The notes beneath the pieces were generated by a model, which worked only from the letters and a program-made list of their open reading frames with translations, was not told the DNA's origin and made no database searches. 64,000 nt of DNA, taken from Panopea generosa. Its lineage: Eukaryota > Mollusca > Bivalvia > Adapedonta > Hiatellidae. Shown in pieces: positions 2,764 to 47,110 of this stretch. The number at the start of each line of letters is the position of its first letter. Position 1 is the first letter of the stretch. Location of the stretch: assembly GCA_029582155.1 (NCBI GenBank), contig CM055898.1, positions 20,782,229 to 20,846,228 of the forward strand, read 5' to 3'. The translations under genes and the position numbers were made by a program.

Positions 2764-3946
2764 TAACAGGAATAAAAACAATAAATACATAACTGGGTAA
2801 ATCCAGAAATCCATAACATTTTAAAATCAGGTCAGAAATAAACAACACAATAAAACCAGAAATCCATAACATTTTAAAATCAGGTCAGAATACAGAAGTA
2901 AATAACAGAAAAAAAACATGAAATCTGAAACATTTTAAAATCAGTTCAAAATACAGAATAAAATAACAGAATAAAACAAGAAATCTGTAACATTTTAAAA
3001 TAAAGTCAGAAAACAGAAGCAAATAACAGAATAAATGAAGAAATCCATAACATTTTAAAATCATGTCAGAAAACTAGTTAATAAGAAAATAAAACCAGAA
3101 ACCTGTAATATTTTAAAATCAAGTCAGAAAACAGAAGAAAATAACAGAATAAAACAAGAAATCTGTAACATTTTAAAATCAGGTCAGAAAACAGAAGCAA
3201 ATACCAGAATAAATGCAGAAATCCATAACATTTTAAAATCAGGTCTGAAAACTTGTTAATAAGAAAATAAAACCAGAAACCTGTATTATTTTAAAATCAG
3301 GTCAGTAAACAGAAGTAAATAACAGAGTAAAACTGGAAATCCGCAACATTTTAAAATCAGGTCAGAAAACAAAAATACACTAAAACCAGAAATCCATAAC
3401 ATTTTAAAATCAGATCAAATAACAGAAGTAAATAACACACTAAAACCAAAAATCCATAACATTTTAAAATCAGATCAAATAACAGAAGTAAATTACAGAA
3501 TAAAACCAGATATCCATAACATTTTAAAATCAGATCAAATAACAGAAGTAAATAACAGATTAAAACCAGATATCCATAACATTTTAAAATCAGATCAAAC
3601 AACAGAAGAAAATAACACACTAAAACCAGAAATCCATAACATTTTAAAATCAGATCAAACAACAGAAGAAAATAACAGAAAAAAAACAGAAATCCATAAC
3701 ATTTAAAATCAGGTCAGAAAACAAGTAAATAACGAAATAAAACCAGAAATCTGTAATATTTTAAAATCACGTCAGAAAACAAGTCAATAAGAAAATAAAA
3801 CCAGAATCTGTAACATTTGAAAATCAGATCAAATAACAAAAGTAAATAACAGAATAAAAGTAGAAATCAATAACATTTCAAAATCAGGTCAGAAAACAGA
3901 AGTAAATAACAGAATAAAACCAGAAATCTGTAACATTTAAAAATCA
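2764..3946. repeat. 60-bp minisatellite, about 19-20 units
   Basis: The unit contains AACATTTTAAAATCAGGTCA, then GAAAACAGAAGTAAATAACA and AATAAAACCAGAAATC. Units differ by substitutions and small deletions. Because the period is a multiple of three, an antisense frame at 3357-3662 stays open with a repeating 20-residue pattern; I treat that as a by-product of the repeat and not as a gene. Confidence 0.9.
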
Positions 3947-6890: not shown

Positions 6891-7198
6891 TTCTGATTGA
6901 TTCATTCATTCATTCATTGAATATTTAGTGTCATTTTTATGCCATCGAGGGCTAACAGATGATCAGTTATTCTAACTACTGTTTCCTGGGATCCTGGAAG
7001 GTTAACTAGTACTCGAGCATACTCCATCTCGCAAGTAACTGATAACTTTCCCACTTGAATCAGCAGTGACAGACAAATGATAATGAGACCAATGTTGTAT
7101 ATTGACCATCACAGAGATTGTGGCCGGATGGGTATTCAAATCCCGACCCTTTGATTGATAGACAGACGTGCTAACGACTGAGCTAAATGGGCCCAGCA
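6891..7198 (-). mobile_element. SINE S1, near full length
   Basis: Read on the minus strand this begins with a tRNA-like head: GGGCCCATTTAGCTCAGTCG (A-box-like) followed by a T-arm-like GGGATTTGAATACC. The S1 body follows, and it ends at GTTAGCCCTCGATGGCAT and an ATTCA simple tail. It is a pol III-type retroposon head and not a working tRNA gene. Confidence 0.8.
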
Positions 7199-7552: not shown

Positions 7553-8336
7553 AAGGTTACCCAGATAGTCTCCCTGTAGTATACATAGGTGGCATTGCCA
7601 AGGACCATCCTGTCACAATATACGGAGCAAAATAATGTATAGTACAAGTATTGAAAAAATGGAGTAAATTATTTATAAACAATATGATTAAAAGATTGAG
7701 AGATCATTCTTAAAGATGTTCAGTATATATAATTATGTAGAAATAAAAATAATATATTCATATGTGTATGAAATTGTATCAGTTCCTTGGTCAATCAATT
7801 GAAGAAATGTAGTGCAGGTAATGTAAAGGGTTTACATAAAAATATTTGTAAAGTTTGATTACCTTTATTTAAATGGAAGCTATATTATTATTGTTTACAA
7901 ATTAATCTAATAGTCTTATGATTTTTTCCGTTGCTTCTTGAGTGTAAATTCAATGCTTGATGGACTTGATTCAATTTAGAATGATATATTATGTAATATT
8001 TACTTTCAAATATTATCATTTTATTTATTGTACACAAATGTTAGTTACTCTCCATGGCCAAGTGGTCCTAGGGATTGTACACAAATTTGAAAATTAATTA
8101 GTCCAACTTTCAAAACCTTATGATTACAAAACCATGGCATACAAAGGGAAGGACAAACCAATTTACAGCTCTACCAATCAAAGACTAGATAAGTTTATGG
8201 GATTATGTTTCAGTGTCAGTGTCTCCAGCACCTTTCCCTCCCATGTTAATCTCCTTGATCAACCAATAACTCACACCACCCAGTAGCTCTGTCCATACAT
8301 TCTCTTGTGGAATGCTCCTTCTGCCTCTATGTTTTA

Positions 8337-8340
8337 ATGC

Positions 8341-8380
<40 letters not shown>

Positions 8381-8925
8381 CCCATGCACATTGTACATGC
8401 ATCACACACACACACAGACACACAGACACACACACTCTTACACCCAATACCCACCCAACAGCACACCCACCCACACAAAAATACAACCCCCTGACACACA
8501 CAGAGAGAGCTCAAACATATATTACACATACACATTAATACACACACCACAGAGAGAGAGAGAGAGAGAGTGCTGACACACACACACTCTTACATCCATC
8601 CACCCACACAAAAATATAACCTCACCACAGACAGAGCTCACAAACACATCTTACACCCACACATAAATACACCCCCCACAGAGAGAGCTCACAAACACAT
8701 CTTACAACCACACATAAATCACACCAAAGAGAGAGAGAGAGAGCTCACACACACACTTTTACACCCACCCACCCACCCACACACAAATACAACCCCTACC
8801 CCCACAGAGAGAGCTCACAAACACATCTTACACCCACATATAAATACACACACCACAGAGAGAGAGAGACAGAGCTCACACACACATCTTATAGAGAGAG
8901 AGAGAGAGAGAGGCCCCCACACAAA
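8337..8925. repeat. Compound (CT)n, (CA)n, (GA)n simple-sequence tract, copy A
   Basis: A pure CT run near 8340-8377 is followed by CA-rich sequence with recurrent ACAGAGAGAGCTCACA blocks, so a short unit has been propagated irregularly. Open frames on both strands here (60-149 codons) have only Ser/Leu/His/Thr or Cys/Val low-complexity content and are shadows of the repeat. Confidence 0.9.
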
Positions 8926-9059
8926 CAGAACTCAAATGCATATTCATGATTCAGCAACATTAATGCACACATACAACAACTGGAGAAGGGCCTATAACAA
9001 GATAGATGAGTTCCAATGAAAGTTGATGAAAAGATAGATCACACAGGCAGAAGGTTTTA

Positions 9060-9122
9060 ATACGATACGATACGATACGATACGATACGATACGATACGA
9101 TACGATACGATACGATACGACG
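9060..9122. repeat. (TACGA)n microsatellite, copy A
   Basis: About twelve perfect TACGA units. Each unit has one CpG, unusual in this CpG-poor surrounding. The orthologous position in copy B carries a longer tract. Confidence 0.95.
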
Positions 9123-9689
9123 ATAATATACAATCAATATAATATGATACAATACAATATAATACAATTCAAATAGAGTACAGAGTAAAAGAAATATTAA
9201 AGAAGCTTATTGTTGAACAGAAATGCATAGTTGATCCATTCAGTATTGCAACTTTTTCTGATATCAATGTTATTATAGATGTGATAATGCCCAGATATCA
9301 CATCCATAGTTATACAGCATAAGTAATCAGTTAAGATGCAACACTTAATTTATCATCATCCAAATTATGAAAAGAATGTTAACAATAACATAAAAATAGC
9401 TATAAAATAAAATAATAGATATCTAAAAACATAAAGTACAAACTGATTAGAAAAAAAAGTGAGAAAACGAGTAAATTTTGACAGATATTTAGTTATCAGA
9501 AGTCAGGAGGGATATTTCAACAGATATCTAAATTTGGGTTAAATAGGGGTTGGGATGAGACAAGACAGAAGTGCATAAACACATCAAATGGGGCTGTTAT
9601 AAGCGGATGGTTGCCATGAAGGTTGATAAAATGGTAGATCACACAGGTGGAATATTACTGCACATTACAGTACAGTGCAGTGCAGTGGA

Positions 9690-9794
9690 ACAATACAATA
9701 CAATACAATACAATACAATACAATACAATACAATACAATACAATACAATACAATACAATACAATACAATACAATACAATACAATACAATACAAT
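9690..9794. repeat. (CAATA)n microsatellite, copy A
   Basis: About 21 near-perfect CAATA units followed by degenerate ATTATACAATA sequence. Long frames on both strands here are repeat artefacts. Confidence 0.95.
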
Positions 9795-11429
9795 CATTAT
9801 ACAATACAATATAATACACTCATTATACAATATAATTCATTATACAACACAATACAGATAAATGAAATATTAGAGGCATTTTGGTGGACAGACATGCACA
9901 ATTGATCCATTCAGCATTGCAACTTTTTCTGATATCCATGTTTTAAAGATATGATATTGCCCAGATATCATGTCCTTAGTTTGTAATGTCAATATTAATC
10001 AGACAAGATGCAACATTAAATTGATCATCTGTCATTTCTGTTCATCAAAATAATATTATATTAAAAACAAAATGGATATATATGAAATATTTTACAATAA
10101 TTACAAAAATACAATTAAATATATATATAAACATAAAATGTAAGTTATATTGTAAAGATATAAAAAATAAAAGAGTTAATTTTAGTAGAAATAGAGTGAG
10201 ATAGTGGGGAGGGGAGGGAAGACCATGAGAATACATGGCAAAATGCATGCATTGAATAAGAATGCTTTAATAAACATTTGACATCAGGCAAGACAAAGAG
10301 CCCCAGGTGTGGGCTGGCAATGTCAAGTTTCGATAAACATGGCAGGTCAGTGCTTGGGGACCCTAACACTAAAACATATACCATAAACCAGTCAGGTCTT
10401 CAACCCGTAGACCTGGAAATGGTTTGTCCTCTTACCCCTTGATGCCAATAATTTTGTTATCAAATGAATCGAAAGTTGGACACTTTAAAGTGGCATAACC
10501 AGTGTCTGAAGTTATTTCTCTTATCAAGAAAGAAACAACTTGTTTATGAACGACAAATATTTGCCTAAATTTTCATGACTTTTGATACATTTATAACAGC
10601 CGATACCTCTCCTAAACATGAATGATTGGTATTTTAAATCTAAATTTACTGATTAGTAATTCGCTGATGGAAATTATCATAATTTTTTTTTTTATTCAAT
10701 TGTATATACTCAGGCAGTTCTGTCATTCTTGATCAGTATTAAAAGGGTCTCTTTCTTAAGATATGGACAAAGATATAAATGCATAATTATATAGACAACT
10801 TTTCTGTCTTCATTTTGTTGGAATGCAAGATTCTTTTGATATTGGAAGCCATTTATGGAGCACTACAAGAAAATATAGTGTTGCTAGGGAAATGAACAAA
10901 AACACTAAAGTATGTGTTACAGATTCGAATTCAGGTTGGCCGAGTGACAATCTGCAGTTATAATCACTACGCATATATCAAGATCAGCGTTAAAAATCTA
11001 AGTGGATACTTAAACATTTATCCAAATCTAAATGTTGTTACCCAGAAATTTGATGTTAATGTATATAACTATTAATTTAAAATCATTAATGTTATTCTAT
11101 GGGTCAGTTCTAATTCAAACATCGGTGATAGCAGTGCATTTAAATCCATGTTTTTTTATGACAAACAACAATATTTTGGACCAGACATTATTTAAATAGT
11201 CACAATTTAAGCATAATGTTACAATATACCAGTTTTATATTGATTTGAAAAGACATAGATACCGATTATGCCACTTAAAGCGACAAACAATTAAACGCTC
11301 TGAAAAAATAGAAGTTAAGATGGGAGAGATCAGATTGAGATGTCCCCCACCCCCACACAAGTACAAGAATTATTACTAACCTAAAAGGTAATCCAAGATA
11401 ATCTTTACTTATTACAAAAATGTTATTTT

Positions 11430-12732: not shown

Positions 12733-13912
12733 CCTGTAGTATACAAAGGTGGCATGACCAAGGTTACCCATTTAGTCTTCCTGTAGTATACATAGGTGGC
12801 ATGACCAAGGTTACCCATTTAGTCTCCCTGTAGTATACATAGGTGGCATGACCAAGGTTACTCATTTAGTCTCCCTTTAGTCACATAGGTGGCATGACCA
12901 AGGTTACCCATTTAGTCTCCCTGTAGTATACATAGGTGGCATGACCAAGGTTACCCATTTAGTCTCCCTGTAGTGTACAAGGGTGGCATGGCCAAGGTTA
13001 CCCATTTAGTCTCCCTGTAGTATACATGGGTGGCATGGCCATGGTTACCCATTTAGTCTCCCCGTAGTATACATAGGTGGCATGACCAAGGTTACTCATT
13101 TAGTCTCCCTGTAGTATACATAGGTGGCATGACCAAGGTTACCCATTTAGTCTCCCTGTAGTCACATAGGTGGCATGGCCAAGGTTACCCATTTAGTCTC
13201 CCTGTAGTATACATAGGTGGCATGACCAAGGTTACCCATTTAGTATCCCTGTAGTATACATAGGTGGCATGGCCATGGTTACCCATTTAGTCTCCCCGTA
13301 GTATACACAGGTGGCATGACCAAGGTTACCCATTTAGTCTCCCTATAGTCACATAGGTGGCATGACCAAGGTTACCCATTTAGTCTCCCTGTAGTATACA
13401 TAGGTGGCATGGCCAAGGTTAACCATTTAGTATCCCTGTAGTATACATAGGTGGCATGACCAAGGTTACCCATTTAGTCTCCCTGTAGTATACATAGGTG
13501 GCATGACCAAGGTTACCCATTTAGTCTCCCTGTAGTATACATAGGTGGCATGGCCAAGGTTACCCATTTAGTCTCCCCATAGTATACACAGGTTGAATGG
13601 CCATGGTTACCCATTTAGTCTCCCCGTTGTATACACAGGTGGCATGACCAAGGTTACCCATTTAGTCTCCCCGTAATATACACAGGTGACAGGTGGCATT
13701 GCCAAGGTTACCCATTTAGTCTCCCTGTAGTATACATAGGTGACATGGCCAAGGTTACCCATTTAGTCTCCCTGTAGTATACATAGGTAACCCTTTTAGT
13801 CTCCCTGTATTATACATAGGTTACCCATTTAGTCTCCCTGTAGTCACATAGGTGGCTTGACCAAGGTTACCCATTTAGTCTCCCCGTAGTATACACAGGT
13901 GGCATGGTCAAG
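12733..13912. repeat. 47-bp minisatellite, about 25 units
   Basis: The unit contains GGTTACCCATTTAGTCTCCC then TGTAGTATACATAGGTGGCA then TGACCAA. Several units have a short deletion turning GTAGTATACATAGG into GTAGTCACATAGG (about 12880, 13158, 13348, 13838), so unit types recur. The array ends directly in the left edge of duplication copy B. Copy A has only one unit at the matching edge. Confidence 0.95.
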
Positions 13913-14651
13913 GACCATAATGGCACAATATACGGAGCAAAATAATGTATAGTACAAGTATTGAAAATATGGAGTATATTATTTATAAACAAAATGATTA
14001 AAAGATTGAGAGATCATTCTTAAAGATGTTCAGTATATATAGTTATGTAGAAATAAAAATAATTTATTCATATGTGTATGTAATTGTATCAGTTCTTTGG
14101 TCAATCAATTGAAGAAATGTAGTGCAGGTAATGTAAAGGTTTTACACAAAAATATTTGTAAAGTTACCTTTATTTAAATGGAAGCTATATTATTATTGTT
14201 TACAAATTAATCAAATAGTCTTATGAATTTTTTCTGTTGCTTCTTGAGTGTAAATTCAATGCTTGATGGACTTGGATCAATTTAGTATGAAATATTATGT
14301 AATATTTAGTTTCAAGTATTATCATTTTATTTATTGTACACGAATGTTAGCTACTCTCAATGACCAAGTGGTCCAAGGGATTGTACGCAAATTCGAAAAT
14401 TAATTAATCCCTTTGAGTTCAAACTTTTAAAACCTTATGATTACAAAACCATGGCATACAAAGGGAAGAACAAACCAATTAACAGCTCTACCAATCAAAG
14501 ACTAGATAAGTTTATGGGATTATGTTTCAGTGTCAGTGTCTCCAGCACCTTTCCCTCCCATGTTCATCTCCTTGATCAACCAATAACTCACACCAACCAG
14601 TAGCTCTGTCCATACATTCTCTTGTGGAATGCTCCTTCTGCCTCTATGTTT

Positions 14652-14656
14652 TAATG

Positions 14657-14705
<49 letters not shown>

Positions 14706-14726
14706 CCCACACACATTGTACATGCA

Positions 14727-14774
<48 letters not shown>

Positions 14775-15712
14775 AGAACCACAGACACACACACACACAC
14801 AGACACACACACTCTTACACCCAATACCCACCCAACAGCACGCCCACCCACACACAAATACAACCTCCCTCCCCCCCTCCCCCCCCCACTCACACAGAGA
14901 GAGCTTAAACGCATATTACACATACACATTAATACACACACCACAGAGAGAGAGCGTTCACACACACACACACTGTAACACCCATCCCCCCACACAAAAA
15001 TTTAACCTCACCACAGACAGAGCTCACAAACACATCTTACACCCACACATAAATACACCCCTCACAGAGAGAGCTCACGAACACATGTAACACTCACGCA
15101 CCCACACACAAATACACCCGCCACCCCCCAATAAGAGAGCTCACAAACATATTGTACACCCACACATAAATATACACACCACAGAGAGAGCTCACAAACA
15201 CATCTTACACCCACACATAAATACCTCCCCCCCCCCCACAGAGAGAGCTCACAAACACATCTTACACTCACCCACCCACACACAAATACCCCCCCCCCCC
15301 CCCCCCCCAGCAATTAGAGAGCTCACAAACATATTGTACACCCACACATAAATATGACCACCACATAGAGAGAGCTGGAGAGCTCACAACACACACTCTA
15401 ACAGTCACCCCACCCACCCACAGAGAGAGCTCACAAACACATCTCACACTCACACACAAATACATCCCCCCACCCCCCACCCCACAGAGATAACTCACAA
15501 ACACATCTTACAACCACACATAAATCACACAAATGAGAGAGAGAGAGCTCACACACACACTTTTATACCCACCCACCCACACTTAAATACAACCCCCACC
15601 CCCACAGGAAGAGCTCACAAACACATCTTACACCCACATATAAATACACATACCAAAGAGAGAGAGACAGAGCTCACACACATCTTACCTATATATAGAG
15701 AGAGAGGCCCCC
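14652..15712. repeat. Compound (CT)n, (CA)n, GA/CA simple-sequence tract, copy B
   Basis: Counterpart of 8337-8925 but nearly twice as long. It has a pure CT run at about 14658-14702, a pure CA run at about 14729-14770, many ACAGAGAGAGCTCACA blocks, and a 20-C run at 15289-15308. Open frames here are low-complexity artefacts. Confidence 0.9.
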
Positions 15713-15852
15713 ACACAAACAGAACTCAAATGCATGTTCATGATTCAGCAATATTAATGCACACATACAACAACTGGAGAAAGGCCTATTACAAGATAGA
15801 TGAGTTCCAATGAAAGTTGATGAAAAGATAGATCACACAGGCAGAAGGTTTT

Positions 15853-15928
15853 AATACGATACGATACGATACGATACGATACGATACGATACGATACGAT
15901 ACGATACGATACGATACGATACAATACG
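15853..15928. repeat. (TACGA)n microsatellite, copy B
   Basis: About 14-15 TACGA units, slightly longer than the copy A tract, with one TACAA variant at the right end. Confidence 0.95.
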
Positions 15929-16461
15929 ATCAATATATGATAATATACAATATAATACAATTCAAATAGAGTACAGATTGAAAGAAATATTAAAAAAGCT
16001 TATTGTTGAACAGAAATGCATAGTTGATCCATTCAGTATTGCAACTTTTTCTGATATCAACATTATTATAGATGCAATATTGCCCAGATATCACATCCAT
16101 AGTTATATAGCATAAGTAATCAGTTAAGATGCAACACTAAATTTATCATCCTCCAAATTATGAAAAGAATGTATACAATTACATAAAAATAGCTATAAAA
16201 TACAATAATAGATATCTAAAAACATAAAGTACAAACTGATTAGGAAAAAAAGTGAGGAAACAAGAGTAAATTTTGACAGATATTTAGTTATCAGAAGTCA
16301 AGAGGGATATTTCAACAGATATCTAAATTTGGGTTAGATAGTGGTTTGGATAAAACAAGACAGAAGTGCCTAAACATATCGAATGGGGCTGTTATAAGTG
16401 GATGGTTGCCATGAAGGTTGATAAAAAGGTAGATCACACAGGTGGAATATTACTGCACATT

Positions 16462-16636
16462 ACAGTACAGTACAGTACAGTACAGTACAGTACAGTGAAG
16501 TGCATTGGAACAATACAATACAATACAATACAATACAATACAATACAATACAATACAATACAATACAATACAATACAATACAATACAATACAATACAATA
16601 CAATACAATACAATACAATACAATGTAATACAATCA
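16462..16636. repeat. (CAGTA)n and (CAATA)n microsatellites, copy B
   Basis: A short CAGTA tract (16464-16497) precedes about 23 CAATA units. Copy A shows only about two CAGTA-type units before its CAATA tract, so both motifs changed length after the duplication. Confidence 0.95.
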
Positions 16637-17924
16637 TTATACAATACAATACATTATACAACACAATACAGATAAATTAAATATTAGAGTCCTTTTGGTG
16701 AACAGACATGCACAATTGGTCCATTCAGCATTGCAACTTTTTCTGATATCCATGTTTTTAAAGATATGATATTGCCCAGATATCATGTCCTTAATTTGTA
16801 ATGTCAATATTAATCAGACAAGATACAACATTAAATTGATCATCTGTCATTTCTGTTCATCAAAATAATATTATATTAAAAACAAAATGGATATTTATGA
16901 AATATTTTAACAATAATTACAAAAATACAATAAAATAAATCTAAAAACATAAAATGTAAGTTATATTGTATAAATATAAAAAATAAAAGAGTTAATTTTA
17001 GTAGAAATAGAGTGAGATAGTGGGGAGGGGAGGGAAGACCATGAGAATACATGGCAAAATGCATGCATTGAATAAGAATGCTTTAATAAACATTTGACAT
17101 CAGGCAAGACAAAGAGCCCCAGGTGTGGGCTGGTAATGTCAAGATTAGATAAACATGGCAGGTCAGTGCCTGGGGACCCTAACACTAAAACATATACCAT
17201 AAACCAGTCAGGTCTTCAACCCGTGGACCTGGAAATCATTTGTTCTCTTATCCCTTGATGCCATTGATTTTGTTATCAAATGAATCGAAAGTTGGACAAT
17301 TTAAAGTGGCATAACCAGTGTCTGAAGATATTTCTCTTATCAAGAAAGAAACAACTTGTTTATGAACGACAAATATTTTCCTAAATTCTCATGACTTTTG
17401 ATGCATTTATAACAGCCGATACCTCTCCTAAACATGAATGAATGGTGTTTTAAATCTAAATTTACTGATCAGTAATTCACTGATGGAAATTATCATAAAT
17501 TTTTTTTTTATTCCATTATATATACTCAGTCAGTTCTGTCATATGGGTCAGTTCTAACTTAAACATCGGTGATAGCAGTGTGTTTAAATCCATGTTTTTT
17601 TATGATAAAGAACAATATTTTGGACCAGACATTATTCAAATAGTCACAATTTATGCATAATGTTACAATATACCAGTTTTATATTGATTTGAAAGAATAA
17701 ATACTGGTTATGCCACTTAAAGGGACACACAAAAGCTCTGAAAAAAATAGAAGTTAAGATGGGAGAGATCAGATTGAGATGTCCCCCCCACCCCCTCTCC
17801 AAGTAACACAAGTACAAGAATTATTACTAACCTAAATGGTAATCCAAGATAATTTTTACTTATTACAAAAATGTTATTTTGTTGTTTTGTTTTTGGTGGT
17901 GAGTGGGGGGACTTTAGCCTATGA

Positions 17925-21254: not shown

Positions 21255-22178
21255 TTGTGTTTATCATGTAAAATGAATGAATTATTCATGTAAATCCATG
21301 TAAATATTTAATGTACTCAATACCATGGAAATAACTGCATAAACCCTAAATCACATCATATACACACTATGTTTTAAATACTATACTACTATGTCAAACT
21401 GCCCTATAAAACATCATGTACACTGCATGCATATAGACCTCTATATCACATCACGTACACACTATATTATTAATGCTATACCACCATATAAACCTGCCCA
21501 ATAAAACATCATGTACACTGCATGACTGTATAGACCCATATCACATCATGTACACACTATATATATATATATATATATATTATTGTATTACCATAAAAAC
21601 CAACCCTATAAAACATCATGTACACTACATGACTATATAGACCTCCATATCACATCATGTACACACTGTATATAAAAAGTTACTACCATATAAACCACCC
21701 CTATAAAACATCATGTACACTACATGACTATATAGACCTCCATATCACATCATGTACACACTGTATATAAAAAGTTACTACCATATAAACCACCCCTATA
21801 AAACATCATGTACACAACATGACTGTATAAACCTCCATATCACATCATTTACACACTGTATATATTACTGTACTACCATATAAACCAGTCCTATAAAACA
21901 ATGTGTACACTGCATGACTGTATATACCTCCATATCACATCATGTACACACTGTATATATTATTATATTACCATATAAACCAGCCCTATAAAACATCATG
22001 TACACTACATGACTGTATAGACCTCCATATTACATCATGTACACACTGCATATATCACTGTACTACCATATAAACCAGCCCTATAAAACATCATGTACAC
22101 AGCATGACCATATCATACGATGTATACACTGTAGATTGTACTACCATATAAATCACCCTATAAAACATCATGTACACT
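21255..22178. repeat. Minisatellite of about 95 bp, about 9 units
   Basis: The unit contains AAAACATCATGTACACTACA, TGACTATATAGACCTCCATA, TCACATCATGTACACACTGT and TACTACCATATAAACCA. Two neighbouring units (about 21610-21800) are nearly identical. A pure AT dinucleotide run occupies 21558-21580 within one unit. Confidence 0.9.
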
Positions 22179-22585: not shown

Positions 22586-22888
22586 TTTTTTTCTATTAAA
22601 AATGACCAGTATTATATGTCATCATTGACCTTTTTGTCCTTCCATAGTTTAATGTTTGTCATTCTCATAATTGTTTATAAAGCACCTGAAATATTAACAT
22701 AAAATATCAATCTTTTATATTTAAGCCATCAAGGGCTAACAATCATTTAATCTTAGACTAACCACTCTTTCCTGGGAAACTTGAAAGTTGACCAGAACAT
22801 GAGCACATCTCCATAAGTAACTGATCACTTATGGTATGCCACTTGAAGCAGCAGTGAGAAACAAATGACTATGAGATGCAAGGCCATA

Positions 22889-22919
22889 TATTAATTAATT
22901 AATTAATTAATTAATTAAT
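22889..22919. repeat. (TTAA)n microsatellite
   Basis: About seven perfect TTAA units between the S1 body and the 61-bp array. Confidence 0.95.
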
Positions 22920-24875
22920 ACTATGGCTGGGCCAGGTTTCACATTCACAACCCATGGATTGATAGTCAGATACACAACCGATGGTGGCCGGACCAGGATT
23001 CACACTCACGACCCATGGATTGATAGTCAGATACACTACTGACTGTGGCCAGGCCAGGATACACACTCATGACCAATGGATTGATAGTCAGATACACTTC
23101 CAACTGTGGCCAGGCCAGGATTCACACTCACGATCATTGATTGATAGTAAGATACACTTCCAACTGTGGCCGGGCCAGGATTCACGCTCACGACCCATGG
23201 ATTGATAGTCAGATACACTTCCAACTGTGGCCGGGCCAGGATTCACACTCACGATCCATTGATTGATAGTAAGATACACTACTGACTGTGGCTGGGCCAG
23301 GATTCACGCTCACGACCCATGGATTGATAGTCAGATACACTACCGACTGTGGCCGGGCCAGGATTCACACTCACGATCCATTGATTGATAGTAAGATACA
23401 CTACTGACTGTGGCTGGGCCAGGATTCACCCTCACGACCCATGGATTGATAGTCAGATACACTTCCAATTATGGCCGGGCCAGAATTCACACTCACGACC
23501 CATGGATTGATAGTCAGATACACTACCGACTGTGGCCGGGCCAGGATTCACACTTATGACCCATGGATTGATAGTCAGATACACTACTGACTGTGGCCAG
23601 GCCAGGATTCACACTCACGACCCATGGATTGATAGTCAGATACACTTCCAACTGTGGTCAGGCCAGGATTCACACTTACGACCCATGGATTGATAGTCAG
23701 ATACACTTCCAACTGTGGCCAGGCCAGGATTCACACTTACGACCCATGGATTGATAGTCAGATACACTACTGACTGTGGCAAGGCCAGGATTCACACTCA
23801 AGACCCATGGATTGATAGTCAGATACACTACTGACTGTGGCAAGGCCAGGATTCACACTCAAGACCCATGGATTGATAGTCAGATACACTTCCAACTGTG
23901 GCCGGGCCAGGATACACACTCACGACTCATGGATTAATAGTCAGATACACTAACGACTGTGGCCGGGCCAGGATTCACACTCACGACCCATGGATTGATA
24001 GTCAGATACACTTCCAGCTGTGGCTGGGCCAGGATACACACTCACGACTCATGGATTGATAGTCAGATACACAACCCACTGTGGCCGGGCCAGGATTCAT
24101 GCTCACGATCCATGGATTGATAGTCAGATACACTTCCAACTGTGGCCAGGCCAGGATTCACACTTACGACCCATGGATTGATAGTCAGATACACTTCCAA
24201 CTGTGGACAGGCCAGGATTCACGCTCACGACCCATGGATTGATAGTCAGATACACTACTGACTGTGGCAAGGCCAGGATTCACACTCAAGACCCATGGAT
24301 TGATAGTCAGATACACTTCCAACTGTGGCCGGGCCAGGATACACACTCACGACCCATGGATTGATAGTCAGATACACTACCGACTGTGGCCGGGCCAGGA
24401 TTCACACTCACAACCCATGGATTGATAGTCAGATACACTTCCAGCTGTGGCTGGGCCAGGATACACACTCACGACCCATGGATTGATAGTCAGATACACT
24501 TCCAACTGTGGCTGGGCCAGGATACACACTCACGACCCATGGATTGATAGTCAGATACACTTCCAGCTGTGGCTGGGCCAGGATACACACTCACGACTCA
24601 TGGATTGATAGTCAGATACACAACCCACTGTGGCCGGGCCAGGATTCACACTCACAACCCATGGATTGATAGTCAGATACACTACCGACTGTGGCCAGGC
24701 CAGGATTCACACTCACGACCCATGGATTGATAGTCAGATACACTACTTACTGTGGCCAGGCCAGGATTCACACTCACGACCCATGGATTGATAGTCAGAT
24801 ACACTTTCAGCTGTGGCTGGGCCAGGATTCACACTCACGACCCATGGATTGATAGTCAGATAAACTACCGACTGA
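22920..24875. repeat. 61-bp satellite array, about 32 units, derived from a SINE head
   Basis: The unit contains GGCCGGGCCAGGATTCACAC, TCACGACCCATGGATTGATA and GTCAGATACACTTCCAACTG. Read in reverse it matches the S1 head from its anticodon arm (ATCTGACTATCAATCCA) to its T arm (GTGAATCCTGGCC). Variants (CTTCCAACTG, CTACCGACTG, CAACCCACTG; GGATTCACAC or GGATACACAC) recur in patterns. A rare variant block starts at 24011 and again at 24560, 549 bp or nine units apart, which suggests block duplications. Frames crossing the array are artefacts. Confidence 0.95.
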
Positions 24876-24892
24876 ACCAACCAGGTCCAGCA

Positions 24893-26780
24893 AATATGAA
24901 GAAAAATACATTAAGTTTGTGTACAGTAGACCTTTGATGGCTAGAACCTGAGGTGGCTTGAGTCAAATATTTTTTAACATCATAATCATACATATACATC
25001 AAATAGAAATTTGGCTGAGACCAATAAGTGGTCTGAGCTATATGTGGTTTCCAGTCATGCGTGTCTGAGCTAACAAAGTTTTTCAGTTTTTCTGAATGAC
25101 CTGCTGATTACATTTTCTTATAATTGAACTAAATAATGAATATACTGTAATTGTTATATGTCCCTGGTTCCATGATGTGATGTAATAGCAATAAAGGTTA
25201 TTACAGATTCACTTTTTACATCTTGTGGGAAGTAGGGGGGAGGTAAAAATAATGAACAGGTAGACATTGTATTGAAAAAAGAACTACTGAATACAGACTG
25301 AAAGTAAATTGAATATTTTAAATTAATTTGCCTCTATTGCATAAAAAAGAAAGATAATCAGAATGAGTCCAGAACATTCTTACCTTAATTTCAAGTCCTG
25401 TTATCATTTTATTTTCTCATTCTTCAATCCTGTGTTTGAATAATTTGCAGCTCCTGAAATAAATTAATACAAAATATAAAATTAATGAAATTTATTTAAC
25501 CATATTAAATTAATCTAGGTAAATAGTAATATATGAAACACATACATACCAAGAAATACAGCCAACCATAAATCCAACCTTAGAATTTTGAATGTGCAAG
25601 GTTTGTTTTAACACAGTGCTATAACCAACTCAAGGGTTCACAAGCATGCACATAGTGAGTGAAAACTTCTCACTCACAGTTGGGACCAATACAGTATAAT
25701 TATGATGTCAATAAGTTGTTAATGGTCAGTGACATTTAATCTTTCCCCATTTGGGACCTCACCTACAGTGTCCAAATTTGGTTTGACCATGATGATGTAA
25801 CTAACTCTATAACCTGTGTAACTGTAAACTAATTTGTCATAATTGAAAAATAAATAAACAGCAATTATATATAAATACTATTTAACAAAACACTTTTGGG
25901 CAATGCATGGGGCAGATCAAGACTTTATGTTTTTATTTACAGCATTAAGGCATTGACATTTTTTCACAATTTTTTTTAAAAAAACACAGTATTTTACATA
26001 AGACCTTTTTACAAAAAGTGAAAGATTTTGGGGTTAAAACATCACAAAATATGCAGCAACATAGCATTTTAGAGGGTCCCAGATGTTTGTCAAGATCCTC
26101 TCTTTCTCTCTTGATGCCCAGAACAATGGCATGCATTCAGCACATAGATCTATTTCATTATTTTTCTAGACATATTCCCCTTGCCACAGGATGTCAAAAT
26201 ATATTGGACTAAGCCTAAAGTCAATTATTTTATAACACTTATGGTACATTTATATAGAAAAATACATGTATATAGTTTGATATATTCTTAAATAAACACA
26301 CATTTAGGTTCCCATTACCATGCAGGTAACTGACCATTCACCAGTTTTTGTGGAGCCTCGGTGCATGGTATGCAGAAAAACTGAAATTAACCTAACTGTA
26401 GCCTCAGGTAGCATCAGTTTCTTTAACCACTGACAGATATTTTTAAGAGGGGAATTTTTAGTACAATAAGGTGAAAATGTAGGGGCAATGGGGCCAAATT
26501 TCGACCCTAAAAATGATCTAGCGATGGCCCTGTTATATATATATATATAAATATTAAAATATGAATTTGAAATCTGTCAAAATATGACAAAAGCAATATT
26601 TTAAATCAGATTGACTCAACTGAAAAGAAATCCCCATTCTAAAAACAAATATCACAAGCACAGCCATTCAAACTTTTCCTTATGATTCTTTAAAATTCCA
26701 TGCAGAGCGAAATCTGTCTTGAGTCTAACCTGAGCACATATATAGGCAATGTTAGGAGATCCCATTTAAATACATTAATT
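24893..26780. other. AT-rich non-coding stretch
   Basis: No exon is recognised. About 25364-25490 is similar to about 22559-22715, so related dispersed sequence lies on both sides of the satellite-bearing SINE. A short TA run is at 26532-26548. Open frames of 61-64 codons on both strands around 25945-26212 have no recognised content. Confidence 0.4.
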
Positions 26781-27075
26781 GGGCCCGATTAGCTCAGTCA
26801 GTGACGCATCTGACTATCAATCCAGGGATCATTAGTTCAAATCCCCATCCAGCAATAGTCTCCGTAATGATTGATATACGTAATGTGTCTCATTATCATT
26901 CACCTCTCACCACTGATTCAAGTGATAAAGTTATCAGTTACTTGCAGAGATGGGTGTGTTCAAGTACTGGTTAACCTTTCAGGATCATAGGAAGCAGACT
27001 GGTTAGGTTAACTGATCATTTGTTAGCCCTCAATGGCATAAAAATGATGCTTAATAATCAATCAATCAATCATTA
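26781..27075 (+). mobile_element. SINE S1, full-length reference copy
   Basis: The tRNA-like head starts GGGCCCGATTAGCTCAGTCA (A box) and has ATCTGACTATCAATCCAGGG (anticodon arm) and AGTTCAAATCC (B box). A body of about 200 bp follows, with CTCATTATCATTCACCTCTC, ACTGATTCAAGTG and CAAGTACTGGTTAACC. It ends with TTAGCCCTCAATGGCATAAA and an AATC tail. There is no coding sequence; such elements depend on a LINE for mobility. Confidence 0.85.
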
Positions 27076-27237
27076 AAGAATACATTACTTTAGCATGTTT
27101 AATAGATATTAGTATGGCAATAGCAGCACAGTGAGCATAATTATAATATAGACATGATGAAGAAAAAATATGCATTACTTGCCAACACTAACATTTCTAA
27201 ATATCCTGATATACTTCCTTGTAAGAAGGACACAATG

Positions 27238-33334: not shown

Positions 33335-35353
33335 TTAAAGGGTAACCAAAATGCTAATTTTTTTTTATATTATTTGAATAAAATCGATTGGTGGTTTATA
33401 AAAATGGTTTAATTTTCATGAAATTCGCTCTTGTTCATCAGTAAATCACGGAAACAGTAACGCACATTACACCTCTCACGGTAATACACGAAAGAATTAA
33501 CGGAGTTACCCGAACGAGGTCCCCGATGACGTCATACCCATAACGCGATCTAATTCAAGATGGCTTCAATGGGCGAAAACATTTCACGAGAGTTATTTTA
33601 ATGGGGATATCGACGTTAGTGACATTTTATTGGACTTATCTGGCTCAAGCAGTGATGGAGAACAGGAAACCATAGATTATGGCATTCAACCATACCAGAT
33701 TATTTACAATAATAATTAAGGACTACCTTTACTACTTATAATAAATAATTTCTACCATAAATATAATTAATACAACTACTACATATTTATTATTAGATCT
33801 ATTGTTATGAATAATTAATAACAATAATAGATAGTGGTAGTTTTAATTATACTAATTGTAGGTCTAGTAACAATTTATCCGTTAATATAACAGTAAAAAT
33901 AGAAATGACTTATTATTATTCTATTATGTGTTCTTCCATTACCATGCTAAAATTTTACCTATGAAAAAAGAAAACAAACTCGTTTTATAACTTTCCCTTC
34001 TTGCGCATTATTAAAAAGAATCTCTGTGCTATATGTTTACATGTAGATCTACATGTATGTAAATAAAAATCGGATCGGACATAAATTCAAAATTTATCTA
34101 AATCGGTAATGCGTATAATATTTATAAATTAATTAAAACGGGATCTTTCACAGACGAGCAGATAATTAAAAAAATAATTACTTTATTATAATGACCAGCA
34201 GACATCATGCTGATCTGCGACACCATATGGTTTTATTGCCCCCTTGATGGTATAAAAATTCCGGTCACAGGTGTCAGCTGTAAAAACAAATCAGTATTGT
34301 CGCATATTGGCGCGTGCATTTGATTAGTCCATATACCCCAGGACAAATATCACGGCTTTGGTAAATTACCGAACTGTAAACTGACATGATTTACGACACC
34401 CCGTCCCCAACTTATAACCTCCCGATGCAATAACGGTAAGCCACATTAGCGCACCGCACAGGATCCTATCCAAGTAATCGCAATTAAAACAAACATTGAT
34501 TTATTAAGGTGCCAATTATCACAACTGGCACGCATGATTTTTCAAAAATATAAAAATAGATCGGTGTACATTTTCGGAAAATAGAATTGACCTAGATCTT
34601 TCTAGAAAATTCCATGACTTCGCGTGATCACAGCCATGGGTATTTACGTTTGGACGCTATTTTCAAATGTAACCTATAGTGTCATGCATAATATTGCTGC
34701 AGACTGCTATGCCACGCGAATATAAACAACCGGTTCTTGAAAAATAAATGTATAAATATATAATATATATTTTGCGGTTAAAAATGGGGAGATTTTAATT
34801 ATTCCCGCGTAAATCTGGACAATTCAATGACCTCGCGTGATCACTGATTAATTGAAATGTATTGTTTTAGCGATTGAAATTGTGGAGATTTGTGTTATTC
34901 CCGCGTATCAAGAGTGTCACAATTTCAATCCATGCACTTTCCAACAAGTTACTGTTAGGAGATTTATGCAAACTAACACTGTTATTACATTTTTATTTCC
35001 AACAATTTCTGATCGAATACTGTTTTCCCACATTGACGTGTGTAAGAGCTTAATTGCGGATTTCTTATAACCATAAACAAGCAGAACGATGCGATTAGTC
35101 ATGTTTGTTTACAGCAAGTGACACGATGACAGGTTGGCGCGATATTTTAATCGGTTATTCTGATTGGTTGGTCCCCGGTGACGTCATTTCGCCATATATG
35201 GAATGGCAAATTTATTTCCGGTGCCGATAAGATTTTACTTGTATAACTGTGCTATATGGCAACTGGTGCTGGTGCGTACTGGCGGATTATATTAAGAATA
35301 CCAATTTGAATTGATTAAGCAAAAATTATTTTTGCATTAAAGTTACCCTTTAA
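33335..35353. mobile_element. About 2-kb DNA transposon-like element with TTAA at both ends
   Basis: TTAA at 33335-33338 and 35350-35353 flank imperfect inverted termini: AGGGTAACCAAAATGC on the left, and on the right the reverse complement AGGGTAACTTTAATGC. TTAA target duplications are known for the piggyBac and Kolobok superfamilies. CpG-containing words are more frequent inside than in the surroundings. No transposase is seen. A short degraded frame occurs at 33560-33719. Most likely a non-autonomous or internally deleted element. Confidence 0.65.
33560..33719 (+). pseudogene. Frameshifted N-terminal coding remnant inside the TTAA element
   Basis: An ATG at 33560 opens MASMGENISRELF, then stops. 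In a neighbouring frame the same region continues as SYFNGDIDVSDILLDLSG, an acidic/serine-rich segment, and DYGIQPYQ, ending at a TAA near 33719. The start, shift by one base and short length suggest a decayed first exon carried by the element. The protein family is not established; an acidic N-terminus ending in a PYQ motif is seen in some transposon-associated invertebrate proteins, which is only an inference here. Confidence 0.35.
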
Positions 35354-39262: not shown

Positions 39263-39763
39263 TCCCAGTTAATCTGCTGGTTTGCCATGATCCTTCATCC
39301 ATCAACTGTCAACAACGTGCATCTAGGAGAACATCCCATTTAAATCTTAGCTCATAAGTGGAACCTTCTGTCTGGTCATGGTTCCTCGTCCAGCAACTGT
39401 CAACACTGACTGTACAGGATGACTGTCACACATAACATTGTCTTTCCATGCTCTTGCAACCTGCCAATACAATAAACTAATATTTTAAAATTATTAATGT
39501 AATGGAGCTTATTTGTTTGAAACCTGTCATTTCCATATCAACCAACAAGAAAATGTATAATATAAAAAGCTTTGTTTACAGAAACACAGAAATCTTTTAA
39601 AATGATTATATAATTTTTTTTGTATAAAATTCAATTGCTGCCAATTTGATATATTTGTGTTTGTTTTACCAGAGAAGCAGCAGAGCTATATAAATGTTTG
39701 TTAGATACGTTTTAATTTGTCAGCATCACTCAGCAGTGAGGTTCCTTTACACCTCTAGCAGGA
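39263..39763. other. Non-coding spacer
   Basis: Contains a short internal near-repeat (CATCAACTGTCAACAACGTG and CAGCAACTGTCAACACTGAC). No gene is recognised. Confidence 0.4.
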
Positions 39764-40054
39764 GCAGTTAGCTCAGTTGGTAACACCTCTATCATATCAA
39801 TCTAGGGCTGCGAGTTCGAATCCACGACTGGGCAGTCTCCATGTTGATTGATATATTAAGACATTGCATGTAATTGTAAATCGTCTCGCACTGCTGATTC
39901 AATGATTCAAGTGGGACAGTTGTCAGTTATTTGCGAAGATGGGTGTGCTACAAGTACTGGTTAACCTATTAGGATCCCAGGAAAGAAGGGTTAAGTTTAC
40001 TAATCATCTGCGAGTCCTAGATAGCATAAAATAATGCTAATATTCAAACAAATT
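39764..40054 (+). mobile_element. SINE S1, full length
   Basis: The head has an intact A box (GTTAGCTCAGTTGGTAACAC) and a perfect B-box core (GAGTTCGAATCC), followed by the body with TCGCACTGCTGATTCA, AAGTACTGGTTAACCTATT and AGTCCTAGATAGCATAAAAT. Its promoter boxes are the best preserved of all S1 copies here. Confidence 0.8.
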
Positions 40055-40094
40055 AGTTTCTTTTAATGGGATGTTATATTCAATACATTAAAAG

Positions 40095-42229: not shown

Positions 42230-43850
42230 AGGACAACAGAAACATGGCTGTGGGAAGAGAGAACAGAAACTCTGGACTGAGAGAGGGGAGGATACAATAC
42301 TGTAACATTAAATTGTTGAAGGAAAGGTCTCAATTCTAATATGAAGTAGGAAGAGCAAAAGACCCATGACAACATTAAATTGCAGCAATGCATTTACAAG
42401 AGGGGATTATTCAAGACATTAGGTTGGTGGGGAAGATCTAAGACTAACATAAGTTGGTGGAGGAGAGGATTAAATATTGTAACATTAAGTTAGTGGAGGA
42501 GAGGATCAAAGACTGTAACATTGAGTTGGAGGAGAAGATCAAAGACTGTAACATTGAGTTAGAGGAGAAGATCAAAGACTGTAACATTAAGTTGGTGGAG
42601 GAGAAGATCAAAGACTGTAACACTGTAACATTAAGTTGATGTTGGATAGGATCAAAGACTGTAACATTAAGTTGATGGAGGAGAGGATCAAATACTGTAA
42701 CATTAAGTTGGTGGAGGAGAGGATCAAATACTGTAACATTAAGTTTGTGGAGGAGAGGATCAAAGACTGCAACATTCAGTTGGTGGTGGAGAAGATCAAA
42801 GACTGCAACATTAAGTTGGTGGAGGCGAGGATCAAAGACTGTAACATTAAGTTGGTGGAGGAGAGGATCAAAGACTGTAACATTAAAATGGTGGAGGAGA
42901 GGATCAAAGACTGTAACATAAAGTTGGTGGTGGAGAGGATCAAAGACTGCAACATTAAGTTGGTGGAGGAAAAGATCAAAGACTGTAACATTAAGTTGGT
43001 GGTGGAGAGGATCAAAGACTGTAACATTAAAATGGTGGAAGAGAGGATCAAAGACTGTAACATAAAGTTGGTGGTGGAGAGGATCAAAGACTGTAACATT
43101 AAGTTGGTGGAGGAGAGGATCAAAGACTGTAACATTAAAATGGTGGAAGAGAGGATCAAAGACTGTAACATAAAGTTGGTGGTGGAGAGGATCAAAGACT
43201 GTAACATTAAGTTGGTGGAGGAGAGGATCAAAGACTGTAACATTAAGTTGGTGGTGGAGAGGATCAAAGACTGTAACATTAAGTTGGTAGAGGAGAGGAT
43301 CAAAGACTGTTACATTAAGTTGGTGGAGGAGAGGATCAAAGACTGTAACATTAAGTTGGTGGAGGAGAGAATTAAATATTGTAACATTAAGTTAGTGGAG
43401 GAGAGGATCAAAGACTGCAACATTAATTTGGTGGAGGAGAAGTTCGAAGACTGTAACATTAAGTTGGTGGAGGAGAGGATCAAAGACTGTAACATTAAGT
43501 TGGTGGTGGAGAAGATCAAAGACTGTAACATTAAGTTGGTGGAGGATAGGATCAAAGACTGTAACATTAAAATGGTGGAAGAGAGGATCAAAGACTGTAA
43601 CATAAAGTTGGTGGTGGAGAGGATCAAAGACTGTAACATTAAGTTGGTGGAGGAGAGGATCAAAGACTGTAACATTAAAATGGTGGAAGAGAGGATCAAA
43701 GACTGTAACATAAAGTTGGTGGTGGAGAGGATCAAAGACTGTAACATTAAGTTGCAGGAGGAGAAGATCAAAGACTGTAACATTAAGTTGGTGGAGGAGA
43801 GGATCAAAGACTGTAACATTAAGTAAGTGTTGGTGGAGGAGAGGATCAAA
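42230..43850. repeat. 36-bp minisatellite, about 40 units, coding-like by period only
   Basis: The unit is AAGTTGGTGGAGGAGAGGAT plus CAAAGACTGTAACATT, 12 codons (IKLVEERIKDCN). The centre is homogeneous, while 42230-42450 is made of strongly diverged units. Unit variants (KMVEER, KLVVER, KLVEER) recur in threes, giving a 108-bp higher-order pattern. One plus frame stays open for 396 codons (42636-43826), and two antisense frames stay open for 175 and 179 codons. Both strands being open, and no splice or start context, argue that this is a non-coding repeat. Confidence 0.9.
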
Positions 43851-44850
43851 AGACTGAAACAGTAAGTTAGTGGAGGTTTTAACTGTGATAGTAAGTTGAG
43901 GAGGAGGAGAGGTTGGAAGACAGTAACAGTAATTTTAGGTGGACATGTTCCAAGATTGTTACATTAAGAAACAATTATATAGGAAGGAGGTTAGCAGCAT
44001 GGATGATAGTTGTTGGTAGGTTAATGCTATGTTCTGACCTCAAATTAAGAATCTAAAAACAGTAGATGTCAGGAGTGGGACAGTGTGATTAGATGGTGAT
44101 GATGGTGGTTTGTTGAAGAGTGACAGTGCAGACCAAGTACATAGGACCAGTGTAAATGCCAAACAAGAAAGAATGGTTTTAGCGTAAAACAATAGAGAGT
44201 GAAGTGAAAAAACAAACCAGTTCCATCACACCATAGACCAGATTCTCAAGAATCTCCGACACATTGAATAGACCCCATTTCTATCATGAATGAGTCATCT
44301 GTACTTAATTCAGCAGACCAGGTATAAGATGAATGTGCTAACTGGGCATTTTTATCACATCCATCCAAATCTGGACCTACCAAATGAAAGATACAAATGA
44401 AGCACACATAAGTGAAGGGAGGCCTACAAAATGTTGGAGATTTTTGAGAATTGGGTCTATGGTGTGATGAAACTGATTTGCTTGTCCACTTCTGTCTCTG
44501 TTGCATTATGCCAAAATTGTTTTTCTTGTTTGACATCTACACTGGCCGTATGTATGTGGTCTGCACTATCTCTCTTTAACAAACCACCACAATCACCATC
44601 CAATCACACTGTCCTACCCCTGCCATCTACAGCCTTTGGGTTCTTAATTTGAGGTCAGAACACATTCTTAACCACCCTTCAACTATCATCCATGCTGCTA
44701 GTTTCGTTCCTATGTTACTGTTTCTTAATGTAACAATCTTGTGACGTGTCCTCCCCAACTTACTGTTACTGTCTTGCAACCATTCCTGCTTACCTTACTG
44801 TAACAGGTTTGAACCATTCCTCCACCAACTTGATGTTAAAATCTCAAAAA
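43851..44850. repeat. Foldback structure 2 (large imperfect palindrome)
   Basis: The left arm (about 43856-44250) and right arm (about 44440-44850) are reverse complements. Paired blocks: GTTCTGACCTCAAATTAAGA (44033) with TTAATTTGAGGTCAGAAC (44644); GATTGTTACATTAAGAAAC with GTTTCTTAATGTAACAATC; GCAGCATGGATGATAG with CTATCATCCATGCTGC. The core at 44264-44430 is the spacer. The outer right arm ends in two diverged units related to the 36-bp minisatellite (about 44740-44832). Confidence 0.8.
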
Positions 44851-46540: not shown

Positions 46541-47110
46541 CCCATGTGGAAGCTCTTACAACAGAAAACAATAGAACAGTATCAGACATCTCATGTGGAA
46601 CATCTGACAACACAAAACAGTCTTACAATAGAACAATATCAGACTTCTCTTGTGGAACATCTGACAACACAAAACAGTCTTACAATAGAACCGTATCAGA
46701 CTTTTCATGTGGAACATCTGACAACACAAAACAGTCTTACAATAGAGCAGTACCAGACTTCTCATGTGGAATTCTGACAACACAAAACAGTCTAACAACA
46801 GAGCAGTATCAGACTTCTCATGTGGAATTCTGACAACACAAAACAGTCTAACAATAGAGCAATACCAGACTTATCATGTGGAACATCTGACAACACAAAA
46901 CAGTCTAACAACAGAGCAGTATCAGAATCTGATGTGGAATTCTGACAACACAAAACAGTCTAACAACAGAGCAGTATCAGACTTCTCATGTGGAATTCTG
47001 ACAACACAAACAGTCTAACAATAGAGCAGTATCAGACTTCTCGTGAGGAATTCTGACAACACAAAACAGTCTTACAATAGAGCAGTATTAGAATTCTCAT
47101 GTGAAACAAT
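46541..47110. repeat. 57-bp minisatellite, about 10 units
   Basis: The unit contains CAGTATCAGACTTCTCATGT, GGAACATCTGACAACACAAA and ACAGTCTTACAATAGAG. Some units replace GGAACATCTGAC with GGAATTCTGAC, changing the frame. Open frames on both strands are by-products. Confidence 0.9.

Follow-up and report, generated by a model that had tools for sequence, protein, structure and literature searches.

The closest described counterparts of the tandem array studied here are the SINE-derived satellites of squamates (sSats; Vassetzky et al. 2023), most of which, in the accessible text of that report, keep one SINE end, and for which the authors leave open whether such satellites are limited to squamates (PMC10702118). 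A second set of precedents concerns minisatellites. As presented in the available sections of one source, Haber and Louis (1998) proposed that repeats of 5–10 bp give rise to minisatellites when slippage or unequal crossing-over occurs between them, and Alu elements are prone to minisatellite birth at short repeats (PMC6947457); in the consulted part of another, 23% of human minisatellites and satellites are TE-derived, with postulated mechanisms explaining 6% of those (PMC3389668). For the limpet Patella caerulea, the accessible text describes PcH-sat as 179 bp long, pericentromeric, about 10% of the genome and without boxes A and B (PMC11121367). SINE-derived satellites and tandem-repeat birth at short repeats are therefore already in print, and our literature search, which had little coverage of subscription journals, found no report of one SINE family's site pair being reused independently.

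We analysed a 64-kb stretch of DNA (the window) that carries a tandem array within a copy of a SINE, S1, and compared it and related arrays elsewhere in the same assembly with these systems, so far as the sources' available text describes them. Like sSats, the S1 arrays consist of a tandemly repeated SINE part with a longer terminal unit reaching the SINE end, and occur as several independent variants in one genome, with few to hundreds of units (PMC10702118); at the window array the unit is a SINE portion, with terminal S1 sequence on both sides. Unlike sSats, they come from a different SINE family and, most likely, another phylum (PMC10702118), and they keep both SINE ends at several loci, with breakpoints on short direct repeats; in a term search of the accessible text of PMC10702118, neither microhomology nor direct repeats came up. 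Whereas sSats reportedly tend to be subtelomeric (PMC10702118), the S1 arrays do not lie near contig ends: all nine array loci are at least 9.5 Mb from any contig end, indicating no subtelomeric preference. As in Alu minisatellites (Jurka and Gentles 2006), the first duplication would fall between short flanking repeats, and slippage or unequal exchange would then enlarge the array (PMC6947457, PMC3389668, as available); here the repeats are a CAGTC pair 61 bp apart in the S1 consensus, and at the five loci with two readable edges those edges have 4–6 bp in common, partly below 5. Unlike Alu minisatellites, the S1 family reuses the same site pair in four separate copies. PcH-sat, also molluscan, likewise holds a segment from a tRNA-type SINE (Nin-SINE), but each S1 array is bound to its locus and takes in the SINE head (PMC11121367, as available). 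Xenopus satellite 1 (OAX) and Hydromantes Hy/Pol III are, in the text available, similarly said to derive from tRNA-related SINE parts (PMC9659126); their SINE parent is disputed (PMC10702118), whereas the S1 parent and edges are visible.

Read on the minus strand, the window locus opens with the S1 5′ edge and the 61-bp array; four bases remaining from the post-tRNA CAGTC come next, then an ATTA run, and the S1 body closes it (Table 1). TRF placed the array at 22920–24874 (period 61, 32.1 copies, 90% matches, score 3028), and splitting it from 24874 to 22924 gave 32 units, all of 61 bp except one of 60 bp. The 5′ edge reads GGACCTGGTTGGTT followed directly by CAGTC, a position that is the 5′ end of S1. 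A sequence-only reading had given the order as D-arm start, about 32 copies of a 61-bp unit, a TTAA run and an S1 body, and TRF, the edges and the body bear this out; its equation of the unit with the anticodon and T-arm was too narrow, since the units run from the D-arm CAGTC (CAGTT and similar in some) to the base preceding the post-tRNA CAGTC. The S1 body beside the array aligned with seven other S1 stretches in the window (67–76% identity, E 3e-22 to 3e-3). Single-head S1 copies in the window include those at 7195–6908, 26776–27080 and 39756–40055, the last two being those that the same reading had placed near 26781 and 39764. It had matched the unit to both heads; we found a match in the former (76% over 50 bp) and none in the latter at E 0.01. 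An Rfam search of the array found nothing. The ATTA run occupies the place of CTCCGTGATGATTG in S1 and is shorter in the second copy of the locus described below, so the microsatellite at 22890–22919 may have grown in situ from S1 sequence.

Table 1. Features of the window array (window coordinates) and the other S1-head arrays.
Feature	Position	Strand	Remarks
S1 5′ edge GGACCTGGTTGGTT, head part outside the array	24875..24888	-	
D-arm CAGTC, start of first unit	24870..24874	-	unit list
Tandem array, 32 units	22924..24874	-	TRF and unit list
Unit A05	24570..24630	-	identical to A14 and to the sister array's B02
Unit A14, nine units away from A05	24021..24081	-	identical to A05
Remnant of post-tRNA CAGTC at far edge	22920..22923	-	TAGT in window; CAGT in sister copy
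(ATTA)7.5 run, junction of array and S1 body	22890..22919	-	TRF
S1 SINE body	about 22717..22889	-	about 24% from S1 consensus
S1 copy, ordinary single head (comparison)	26776..27080	+	
S1 copy, ordinary single head (comparison)	39756..40055	+	
C8 array			67 units of 61 bp; both S1 edges, both reading CAGTT
C6 array			53 units of 65 bp; both S1 edges
C17 array	D-arm edge 32905373, still running at 32916900		61 bp; about 189 units if unbroken
C4 array			9 units of 71 bp; both S1 edges
C11 array			16 units of 69 bp; both S1 edges
C3 array			14 units of 86 bp (S1 13–98); S1 body 3′; 5′ side without S1 start
C9 array			about 60 units of 50–52 bp; about 14 nt non-S1 plus S1 15–52; S1 body 3′
C19 array	L075 57–930		11 units of 75 bp; about 26 nt flank plus S1 2–50

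To characterize the parent element, we searched the 1.47-Gb assembly to which the window belongs with a 269-bp S1 copy from contig C8 and obtained 7423 first-look candidates, the best 40 of which, when scored, all matched (40/40; 77–100% identity). A consensus was derived by aligning 30 of these 40; because the 30 copies were picked as best matches they lean young (mean 6% from consensus). S1 is dispersed in high copy number, its consensus tail is a repeated AATC, and the consensus shows what we take to be the motifs of boxes A and B. The head appears to be tRNA-related, by a narrow margin: the tRNA model RF00005 matched S1 copy L043 over its full length at 28.3 bits (E 1.7e-4) against a gathering score of 29, and gave no match to copy L044, which was supplied inside a longer stretch. 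ARAGORN called no tRNA within S1 at any of the 30 loci, its one call (in L049) lying outside S1. The consensus holds two CAGTC sites spaced by 61 bp, the first in the D-arm and the second immediately past the tRNA part, and this pair is the only direct repeat of at least 5 bp at a 61-bp offset; both sites were intact in 20 of the 30 copies, at a spacing of 59–62 bp. Within the first 200 bp of S1, 58 of 10395 breakpoints tested (0.56%) had at least 5 bp of shared sequence, and the CAGTC pair is one of several such repeats, the first 170 bp containing 13 direct repeats of at least 5 bp at offsets of 20–149. None of the 30 S1 loci had a tandem repeat of period 40 or more overlapping S1 (30/30).

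We then compared this head with a majority unit taken from 46 units of the two C5 arrays (the window array and its sister, below; the shortened unit B08 excluded). The two agreed without gaps at 50/61 sites and differed at 11/61, and several of the differences were also seen in ordinary S1 copies (GTAGTGCATC; CCATGG). An origin of the C5 array in the head of one SINE is supported by the S1 5′ edge and S1 body on its two sides and by the unit, which corresponds to an S1 interval with a direct repeat at its ends. Within box B, position 43 is T in S1 and G in 45 of the 46 units (A in one), and position 44 is C in S1 and T in 46/46, and this holds for the edge unit too. Most simply, the S1 pol III promoter at C5 would already have been dead before amplification; the box B change may instead have spread later through the array. 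Box B is altered in every unit. We propose no cellular function for the array and regard it as a mutational by-product.

A search with the unit led to another array on C5, at a distance of 930 kb, in which the S1 edge, the ATTA run, the S1 body and the flanking sequence all recur. This sister array has 15 units, one of them shortened to 38 bp. Its 14 full units chained with the window units in the same order (score 20; 10/14 paired), compared with a mean of 14.0 and a maximum of 21.5 in 5000 shuffles (p 0.003) and a score of 12 in reversed order. The shared order indicates that about ten distinguishable units predate the duplication, and the difference between 32 and 15 units that the array lengths have changed since. 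The locus had been proposed as a visible birth stage of a satellite; with about ten units older than a duplication whose copies are 2–8% apart, and a body 24% from consensus, it is past that stage. Nor does the name satellite suit it: in the strict sense that term implies long, heterochromatic arrays at many loci that are homogenised as a set, and in the unit search made the C5 unit type occurred at two related loci only, every other array having its own unit, so that locus-bound minisatellite is the better name.

What the second array says about timing depends on how the C5 pair arose. The window is almost entirely collinear with C5 near 21.71–21.78 Mb and the 1-kb flank of the array has just two full copies, 97% identical, as would be seen if the two arrays were unmerged haplotypes and the 32 and 15 units were alleles. 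Such an explanation, which would alter the dating and not the origin, seems to us unlikely: the main collinear blocks are 92–98% identical, the lower figure being low for alleles, and a 1.2-kb probe from outside the pair (L053, 21.20 Mb) had seven further relatives in the same orientation (76–95% identity) across C5 19.97–21.50 Mb, which has the look of a segmental-duplication cluster. A cluster of this kind fits the sequences better than unmerged haplotypes would, and we treat the pair as a probable duplication whose copies differ by 2–8%. The sister array also carries the A05/A14 variant once (B02). The recurrence of this variant exactly nine units apart in the window had been noted earlier and is correct, and the later block duplication drawn from it is weakly supported: nine unit pairs at that offset differ by 0, 2, 6, 5, 5, 6, 6, 1 and 8 bases, and the lag-9 excess (p 0.014) is accompanied by lag 8 (p 0.0155) and lag 2 (p 0.0245) among 19 lags, uncorrected.

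The first unit search yielded the pair of C5 arrays, a lone S1 copy and nothing else. Wider junction patterns and other units found more arrays, so this first result reflected a limit of sensitivity, and the idea of a single birth was rejected. About 100 of 150 matches to one junction pattern, and 100 of 184 to a second, were listed; among 12 fetched were three arrays (C8, C9 and C6) and eight single S1 copies (L067 uncounted). Searches with a C8 dimer and a C4 dimer added, among the matches listed, C17, C4, C19, C3 and C11. In all, nine S1-head array loci including C5 were identified, the eight others on other chromosomes. This number is a lower bound, and more S1-head arrays are likely in the genome. 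Two expectations of the earlier reading were broadly borne out, in that head-probe matches were mostly single S1 copies (among those listed) and nearly all nine loci have S1 sequence at an edge of the array. The D-arm CAGTC and the post-tRNA boundary were used as a pair at 4/9 loci (C5, C6, C8 and C17), a share biased upward because the probes came from S1-head arrays. At C17 the units start at the D-arm CAGTC with the same junction; sequence was read at the array's ends, with listed matches in between and the far edge unread. The C3, C9 and C19 arrays are cut differently from the CAGTC-pair loci, and the C9 and C19 units include non-S1 sequence; use of the CAGTC pair at C9 was ruled out by its edges. 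At C19, the flank piece occurs once more at the array end and there is no S1 body, a layout that suggests exchange between repeats flanking an S1 piece. Directly after the S1 body that follows the C8 array lies an inverted S1 piece (S1 121–214; L058 4634–4903).

These S1-head arrays represent at least nine independent births. The S1 bodies of different loci are 54–80% identical and have 1–8 derived sites in common, in contrast to the 27/28 shared by the C5 duplicate bodies, and the bodies at the seven loci that have one lie 13–35% from consensus, against the mean of 6% for the 30 best-match copies. Flanks of different loci are unrelated save for dispersed stretches of 76 and 79 bp. We considered whether copies of a single S1 with an array, or of a master S1 whose head was doubled, could instead have spread across the genome, making the nine loci products of one shared birth. 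The C6 and C8 units have the same ending, CCACCCAGTCA, and some body pairs share more derived sites than the independence figure (C5–C4, 8 vs 3.8; C4–C11, 5 vs 2.5), an excess that we attribute to subfamilies of S1 and to mutable sites. Set against a shared birth, besides the divergent bodies and unrelated flanks, are the differing unit lengths and boundaries (61, 61, 61, 65, 69, 71, 86, 52 and 75 bp) and the outcome of a consensus-trimer search, in which the best 40 of 93 candidates all matched over at most 69 bp, and none proved to be a tandem head close to consensus. A common origin of the nine arrays is accordingly very unlikely.

With independent births as the preferred account, we examined the breakpoints. 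Five loci have both S1 edges readable, and their edges share 4–6 bp, partly less than 5: at C5 the string is 4 bases in the sister copy and 3 (AGT) in the window copy, and elsewhere it is 5 at C8, 5 at C6, 6 at C4 and, by eye, 4 at C11. Mutation since birth blurs breakpoint edges. Random S1 breakpoints with periods of 45–95 reached 4 shared bases in 1.7% of cases. The C3 junction has about one shared base (by eye), leaving a short-repeat mechanism unsupported there. At C4, the SINE including its array is flanked by an exact 16-bp repeat, ATTTTAAATTCAGCTA; this target-site duplication around both places the array inside one SINE insertion. Evidence for a target-site duplication is weak elsewhere, the longest shared strings being 6 bp at C5, 9 bp at C11 and 8 bp at C3.

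From a period of 61 that equals the CAGTC spacing, and from the edges, we infer that the first duplication took place between the CAGTC sites. The array very probably arose by tandem duplication at a short direct repeat in one old S1 copy, followed by misaligned exchange. A replication slip or end-joining between the two CAGTC sites would have produced the first tandem duplication of the 61-bp interval, and once two units were in place, misalignment (slippage, unequal exchange or conversion) could have lengthened or shortened the array. Other old S1 copies would have followed the same path independently, three at the same site pair and others at other short repeats. Against this account, the initial step itself was not caught: no S1 dimer or trimer turned up at the 12 places fetched, and the 40 scored consensus-trimer matches stay within 69 bp. 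The further short direct repeats of S1, the C3 junction, the non-S1 sequence in the C9 and C19 units and the three-base AGT at the window copy also weigh against it. The earlier suggestion of slippage or unequal exchange in a single SINE head thus holds for the origin at this locus, where edges and interval speak for it, and the process named is the one we would also presume. We regard as highly improbable that the first duplication was driven not by the direct repeat but by the head folding, during replication, into a hairpin or a tRNA-like structure. While at 6/9 loci most of the tRNA-related part lies within the unit, the C9 and C19 units end at S1 50–52, and a single DNA strand of the head folded no better than shuffled sequences (z 0.36; 122/200 as good), a value on which we rejected a stable DNA hairpin as the main driver. 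That an unrelated minisatellite arose by chance inside or beside an S1 copy, in a window that is rich in minisatellites, is scarcely credible given the ungapped agreement of the unit consensus with the S1 head at 50/61 sites and the continuation of both array edges into S1.

We tentatively propose, as a possibility that falls somewhat short of probable, that S1 acts as a built-in satellite seed, its 5-bp direct repeat repeatedly giving birth to the same 61-bp unit in independent copies. If true, satellite births would be seen in replicate within a single genome, at sizes ranging from about 9 to about 189 units, and one of them would come with a segmental-duplication clock. The starts of tandem repeats are usually hidden because the founding sequence has been lost. 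Here one genome displays the parent SINE, the breakpoints, the C4 target-site duplication, several independent occurrences of the event and one array in duplicate. With parent, breakpoints and repeat events all visible, whether direct repeats in mobile elements set where satellites start becomes testable, as do the growth and homogenisation of arrays after birth. The SINE-derived satellite described in squamates would also be extended to a probably distant animal group.

The two C5 copies differ at other tandem repeats as well, minisatellites in the window having changed length between them in both directions. Those that differ lie at 2798–3946 (60 bp), 12733–13788 (47 bp), 21350–22108 (95 bp), 42416–43876 (36 bp) and 46567–47108 (57 bp), and the 36-bp array occupies about 1.5 kb in the window and 3.7 kb in the other copy. 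Window positions 7553–10726 and 13863–17542 form a repeated segment (84–90% identical) with similar ATACG and ACAAT runs. A stretch of about 2.0 kb at 33339–35349 is without counterpart in the second C5 copy, and with a 4-base overlap at the join it may have inserted there, producing a target-site duplication.
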